Shown here: positions 32,956 through 33,362 of the stretch, piece by piece
How the letters are laid out: each line of letters opens with the position of its first letter
How positions within the stretch are numbered: the first letter of the stretch is position 1
NCBI GenBank assembly: GCA_001777915.1
Contig: MFFN01000004.1
Span: 805,744-869,743 of the forward strand
Length of the DNA stretch: 64,000 bases
Source of the DNA: Candidatus Edwardsbacteria bacterium RifOxyA12_full_54_48
GTDB lineage: Bacteria > Edwardsbacteria > AC1 > EtOH8
Reading direction: 5' to 3'
The notes under the pieces: model-generated
Told to the model about the DNA's origin: nothing
Databases searched by the model: none
Seen by the model: the letters and a program-made list of their open reading frames with translations, nothing else
Translations under genes and position numbers: made by a program

Positions 32956-33298
32956 GTCGCGCCCCGCGCGGGCGCGTGGATTGAAACTTCTATTGACCAT
33001 ACCCATACAGCCGAAGAGTTAAGTCGCGCCCCGCGCGGGCGCGTGGATTGAAACTGGTTTTGGTCGCCGGTCAGGGTGAACACATGGCGTCGCGCCCCGC
33101 GCGGGCGCGTGGATTGAAACGCTGGCCAGCCGTACCAGGAACCAGCGGCCAGGCGTCGCGCCCCGCGCGGGCGCGTGGATTGAAACACTTCTTGACTATC
33201 CGAAACGTGTCGGTGTTCAGTCGCGCCCCGCGCGGGCGCGTGGATTGAAACTTGAGATAGTCTATATATGGTCAAGAGGGGGGCGCGTGGATTGAAAC
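32956..33298 (+). CRISPR. Type I-C CRISPR array: five intact repeats and one truncated
   Basis: Identical 32-base repeats lie at 32956-32987, 33023-33054, 33089-33120, 33155-33186 and 33220-33251. Each begins GTCGCGCCCC, can fold through CGCGCCC/GGGCGCG arms and ends GCGTGGATTGAAAC, the classic I-C form. The four full spacers are 35, 34, 34 and 33 bases. The sixth repeat keeps only its last 18 bases (33281-33298), joined to 29 bases of spacer 5 (33252-33280), so a small deletion removed the join. Repeat identity falls only at this leader-distal end. The few spacers suggest a young, trimmed or little-used array. Confidence 0.97.
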
Positions 33299-33332
33299 AA
33301 AGACGGGAAAAAGGTAGAACGCAGGGTTTGTG

Positions 33333-33362
33333 GTCGTGCCCCGCACGTGCGGGGATGAACCG
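33333..33362 (+). repeat. Single type I-E-like CRISPR repeat
   Basis: A 30-base unit with the palindromic core CCCCGCACGTGCGGGG, followed by ATGAACCG and preceded by GTCGTG. This is the layout of type I-E repeats, not of the I-C repeats beside it. It lies 34 bases, one spacer length, after the last I-C repeat fragment, in the same orientation. No second copy follows. No type I-E cas gene is present in the window. Confidence 0.72.

Follow-up and report, generated by a model that had tools for sequence, protein, structure and literature searches.

The locus studied here raises the question of why a type I-C CRISPR array should end in a single unit of type I-E appearance. The window, i.e., the whole stretch of 64,000 nucleotides that was analysed, carries a complete type I-C cas operon in the order cas3, cas5c, cas8c, cas7c, cas4, cas1c and cas2 (24793-32776, + strand). 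The cas3 core/HD, Cas5c, Csd1/Cas8c, Csd2/Cas7c, Cas4, Cas1c and Cas2 matches all scored above the curated cut-offs of the NCBIfam profiles, with Cas1c reaching 509.7 bits. A leader region of about 180 nt between cas2 and the first repeat (32777-32955, +) aligns with the leader region of a same-family I-C locus (L056). The array downstream of cas2 comprises five full 32-nt I-C repeats, GTCGCGCCCCGCGCGGGCGCGTGGATTGAAAC, with spacers of 35, 34, 34 and 33 nt (32956-33251, +), followed by a sixth I-C repeat of which the 3' 18 nt remain, GGGCGCGTGGATTGAAAC (33281-33298, +). About 19 nt of spacer and the 5' half of this repeat have been lost, which gives a unit spacing of 47 nt instead of 65-67. The closest I-C locus found is in a same-family genome (G009), with a Cas1 88% identical and the same repeat; its contig stops within the array, and the distal array end is outside the sequence.

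The terminal unit, GTCGTGCCCCGCACGTGCGGGGATGAACCG (33333-33362), is 30 nt long and lies 34 nt past the half-deleted I-C repeat, and the original prediction, which placed such a single unit at the end of the segment 33281-33362, is thus correct in its coordinates. Given the lengths of the other spacers in the array, the 34-nt interval (33299-33332, +) is I-C-like in length. A comparison of it with phage and plasmid sequence had been proposed as a check; searched as a spacer, it gave no phage or plasmid match over the interval, and no exact 24-mer match in IMG/VR. A regulatory mini-CRISPR, in which the interval would guide to a promoter in the window, was also considered and rejected, as the best self-match is 20/34, the same as in shuffled controls. 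The unit has no T-run, and a role as terminator was likewise rejected.

The last 24 nt of the unit (33339-33362, +) consist of the I-E palindrome CCCCGCACGTGCGGGG and the handle ATGAACCG, and are unique in the genome. No second copy of the unit with up to 3 mismatches exists in the window (0 in 100 shuffles), and no second match to the 24-nt core was found in the 2.74 Mb genome, where the backwards control also gave 0. The I-E core and handle pattern, with its 20 fixed bases, occurs once in the genome and in none of the shuffles, and the unit folds well, with a hairpin z-score of -2.8. The original prediction would have failed had the unit recurred in the genome as a non-CRISPR palindrome; the 24-nt core was searched accordingly, without such a recurrence. 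The terminal I-E feature is therefore real, and is neither chance nor a dispersed palindrome.

The predicted I-E architecture held in part. The palindrome with its CCCCGC arm and the handle are exact; the unit, however, has 30 nt instead of the usual 29, TG instead of TT before CCCC, and a 5' hexamer that is not I-E-like. It is also a single copy in the genome, whereas an I-E array would have at least two copies with 32-nt spacers. A search for I-E arrays with this very repeat had been proposed, and here too the outcome is mixed: the unit aligns with repeats of arrays that adjoin annotated type I-E cas genes, carried by Haematobacter, Azospirillum and Acidiphilium plasmids, but the exact 30-nt unit has 0 matches in the 85,000 genomes scanned. 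Among IMG/VR viral contigs, both the exact 24-nt core and the hybrid I-C/I-E pattern gave 0 matches.

The deviating 5' end resembles the other repeat type. The first 12 nt of the unit, GTCGTGCCCCGC (33333-33344, +), are identical to the I-C repeat 5' end at 11 of 12 positions, and the hexamer GTCGTG resembles the I-C start GTCGCG. In comparison with a profile built from 11 I-E array families, all 11 of which have TT before CCCC, the hexamer has a log2 P of -16.3, against -5.7 to -6.9 under the I-C repeat. A slightly changed I-C start is thus favoured about 2^9 to 2^10 times over the I-E profile and about 2^5 to 2^6 times over random flank. Since the hexamer lacks I-E likeness, the part that is securely I-E amounts to some 18-24 nt and falls short of a whole I-E repeat. 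Judged by its sequence, the unit is probably a junction repeat, the first 12 nt being I-C and the last 18 nt I-E. In the simplest anatomy, the last I-C repeat would have been cut after 12 nt and continued into the 3' 18 nt of an I-E repeat via the shared GCCCCGC, which would explain both the 30-nt length of the unit and the I-C-like length of the 34-nt interval. This chimeric reading rests on six bases outside the shared core, and the other cases of the same arrangement described below lack a chimeric 5' end.

Truncated I-C ends are found in other arrays. In several I-C arrays the last full repeat is followed, one spacer further on, by a final repeat that breaks off after 8 to 19 nt, and in a same-genus genome (G003) a decayed I-C array ends in an exact 12-nt stump, GTCGCGCCCCGC. 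The latter relic (L054, reverse strand, ~6038-6110) has one full repeat, one spacer and the stump, lies upstream of an apparent glycine dehydrogenase gene (read by eye), and has no Cas genes of the window's set found beside it. The flank past the terminal unit and the array end in G003 are of candidate homology (21/1000).

The genome as a whole has a single Cas1, of type I-C, and no Cas6e was found in it. Hence there is no I-E system for the terminal unit to serve, unless it were one lacking both proteins; I-E cas genes elsewhere in the genome had been named as something to look for, and the lack of another Cas1 and of Cas6e is what is expected of a relic. No I-E trace was found in the searched relatives either. 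The genomic site itself is variable. Synteny holds for the genes of both flanks in another same-genus genome (G002), where the segment from 24525 to ~33379 is replaced by another defence locus (L025:8215-14478), with a methyltransferase carrying an Mrr-like domain, a NACHT-SduA protein and a GajB-like UvrD helicase. Given this exchange of defence genes between syntenic flanks, the site is a swap site for defence systems. The I-E unit sits about 17 nt inside the right edge of the variable segment, the short stretch 33363-33379 (+) separating it from the resumption of synteny. The conserved right flank carries a CPBP/Rce1-like intramembrane protease gene (33406-34119, +), 91% identical in G002. 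Flanking direct repeats were considered as an island target-site duplication and discarded, as 444 of 1000 shuffles were as good. Just past the protease gene, four to five near-identical 80-bp tandem copies occupy intergenic sequence (34191-34590), with a similar copy in G002, and are followed by a gene for a large secreted protein with ~41-aa tandem beta-propeller-like repeats, VAVNPVTNKIYVAN (34661-37441).

The same arrangement was found in other genomes. A forward scan of about 85,000 genomes for ATTGAAAC, a gap of 30-60 nt and an exact I-E core with handle yielded five loci, each with a full-length CRISPR repeat ahead of the I-E repeat: an I-C-type or DR9-type repeat, then 31-52 nt further on an I-E repeat, then non-repeat flank. 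Each has one I-E repeat except L029, which has two. Two deltaproteobacterial loci (L030 and L031) are I-C arrays with one terminal I-E repeat, after 46 and 33 nt respectively. In L028 (FCPU426), one I-C repeat is followed after 31 nt by one I-E repeat, and this mixed end lies ~1 kb downstream of a complete I-E locus with the same repeat, in a genome with 16 exact copies of the same I-E core; it is the only case in which a complete older I-E system is seen in the same lineage. The two remaining loci are from Nitrospirales. In L027 (L027:1880-2215), three copies of a 37-nt repeat, one DR9-like repeat and one I-E repeat form one chain, possibly a three-layer succession, and in L029 one DR9-like repeat is followed after 52 nt by one I-E repeat and then by a degraded second one. 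The genomes of L027, L029, L030 and L031, all incomplete MAGs, each contain the exact I-E core once, and no Cas6e was found in them. When a relaxed forward pattern was applied to 386 diverse genomes, the window was the sole match besides six others, which are without the I-E palindrome in the matches shown and look like chance. As the forward scans demanded an intact I-E core, degraded cases were missed, and preservation cannot be judged from these results.

The mirror image, in which an I-E array is followed by I-C repeats, exists as well. It was searched for with the reverse pattern in 395 genomes of L031's phylum, a sample centred on a genome that is itself a match, and was present in 2 of the 11 genomes with I-E arrays, counted as nine or more exact repeats. 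At these loci (L090:549-742 and L103:620-706), I-E arrays have degraded or single type I-C repeats at their distal ends. In one genome (G388) the I-E locus is complete, its array exceeds 80 repeats, and one I-C repeat comes 29 nt after it; in the other (G427) the I-E array leads into a degraded half I-E repeat and then three I-C repeats, also degraded. A third reverse-scan match (G299) is probably chance. Stacked arrays thus occur in both polarities in unrelated genomes, which speaks for stacking by successive systems and against a dedicated function of an I-E hairpin at I-C ends. The spacing is near spacer length in four of the six other cases, which is weakly significant (p ~0.03); the cases are few, and the distance was bounded by the scans.

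Several genes beside these CRISPR loci are recorded here as separate observations. Extra genes lie between cas6e and cas1e in two I-E operons, encoding a DUF1016/YhcG PDDEXK nuclease (L028:2499-3779) and a Bro-N protein (L104:8561-9403). Two related genes, possibly encoding four-helix bundles, each lie directly past a CRISPR end (L028:6239-6808 and 7256-7732), which suggests a tandem duplication of array end plus gene. A DUF4143 AAA ATPase gene adjoins a two-repeat I-E relic (L050:7645-8802), and a gene similar to it in appearance lies beside a relic in L053, upstream of 2688.

Taken together, the present I-C array probably overlies an older I-E array, of which the terminal unit is the fossil distal end. 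Recombination at or within the arrays would have placed the I-C cas operon and array at the end of an I-E array, with the crossover probably inside the repeats, at the common core GCCCCGC, leaving one junction repeat of 12 nt I-C and 18 nt I-E. The old I-E array, no longer fed, may then have collapsed to its last repeat via recombination between identical repeats; all other I-E repeats and the I-E cas genes would have been lost, and the surviving last I-E repeat would have become the distal end of the new array. We infer the order of these events, the crossover inside the repeat and the lack of a present function; from its sequence, the remnant should be inactive in interference, beyond perhaps lending its hairpin to the end of the array transcript. 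Such a course agrees with what is known of arrays, which outlive cas genes and can act as recombination points (PMC2886076), and which collapse by recombination between repeats, terminal repeats that differ from the others resisting loss (PMC8047081). The original prediction, a relic of a former I-E array replaced by or recombined with the I-C locus, is supported by the homology to I-E arrays, by the lack of another Cas1 or a Cas6e, and by the same join and its mirror elsewhere; given the I-C appearance of the unit's first 12 nt, recombination fits better than simple adjacency. Against the fossil reading, neither the exact unit in other genomes nor its exact core in viral contigs came to light, and the I-E part is intact and the adjacent I-C repeat is damaged, although a pure fossil would be expected to decay first.

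A selected end cap is the explanation that comes next, and we consider it unlikely. A terminal repeat of another subtype cannot recombine with those upstream, and would thereby protect the last spacer and prevent collapse; the hairpin of the unit, which folds well, could putatively also finish the last crRNA. Many arrays have terminal repeats with 3' changes proposed to reduce collapse (PMC8047081), and a single foreign repeat near spacer distance is found in both polarities, and the spacing leaves room for a cap or for recombination inside repeats or shared spacers. The arrangement is, however, rare, with five exact forward cases in ~85,000 genomes even though this I-C repeat class is present in 23 of 386, and the I-C arrays inspected mostly finish with an I-C repeat, full or truncated. 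That selection repeatedly caps arrays in general with exactly one distal repeat of another subtype, placed at spacer distance, seems slightly more doubtful still; if true, a non-recombining repeat would guard the oldest spacers, and subtype turnover would supply a functional terminus.

The other explanations are considerably less probable. In phages and plasmids, solitary repeats of types I-E and I-C have been proven to act as anti-CRISPR RNAs (PMC10651486), and a solitary I-E repeat transcribed with the I-C array might similarly sequester incoming I-E Cas proteins. Such a decoy is very improbable here, since the unit is chromosomal and ends a working array, its I-E 5' half is probably missing, the mirror arrangement exists, and the criteria for solitary repeat units leave out repeats beside other repeats (PMC10651486). 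We regard as equally improbable a degenerate last I-C repeat that came to resemble I-E by chance or by palindrome-forming template switching: the 12-nt match and the frequent truncation of I-C ends agree with it, but not the rarity of the core and handle pattern, nor the same join with unambiguous I-E repeats elsewhere. An assembly artefact joining two arrays is the least probable of all. It is true that the five forward matches are all metagenome-assembled genomes, some of them at contig ends, but the window is far from the ends of its contig, which is 958 kb long and belongs to a 9-contig genome with a completeness rating of 100%, L028 and G388 likewise lie away from contig ends, and the two repeat types probably share too little sequence for a k-mer misjoin.

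Mixed-subtype array ends thus form a wider set, of which the window is one example: an I-E fossil, probably a junction repeat, on an I-C array. The loss and exchange of subtypes are known mostly from strain comparison, whereas a terminal foreign repeat records the succession within a single genome, the distal repeat naming the previous system. With I-C over I-E and I-E over I-C both represented, the direction and rate of turnover could be counted across genomes by means of a simple scan. Such ends would probably escape array callers that require a single repeat per array. No account of array ends of mixed subtype was found in the open-access literature searched, which is weak evidence of novelty given that most subscription papers are outside the scope of that search.

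In comparison with known systems, the locus has the complete cas3-5c-8c-7c-4-1c-2 operon, the 32-nt repeat and the 33-35 nt spacers of a type I-C CRISPR-Cas locus, and differs in its last unit, which is in part I-E and not simply a truncated I-C repeat. That unit shares the palindrome CCCCGC-NNNN-GCGGGG and the handle with type I-E repeats, but is present in one copy, without cas genes, and with a 5' end and a length that are not those of I-E. Like solitary repeat units and Racr (PMC10651486), it is a single repeat without cas genes of its own; unlike them, it is attached to an array on a chromosomal contig, not carried on a phage or plasmid. The terminal-repeat polymorphism described for other arrays (PMC8047081) also consists of a last repeat that differs at its 3' end, although here this end is replaced by sequence of another subtype. 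The relic CRISPRs of Escherichia and Salmonella (Touchon and Rocha 2010, PMC2886076) are similar in that few repeats remain after the loss of cas genes and in that the CRISPR serves as a recombination point, whereas the relic in the window is fused onto the tail of an array from a different subtype.
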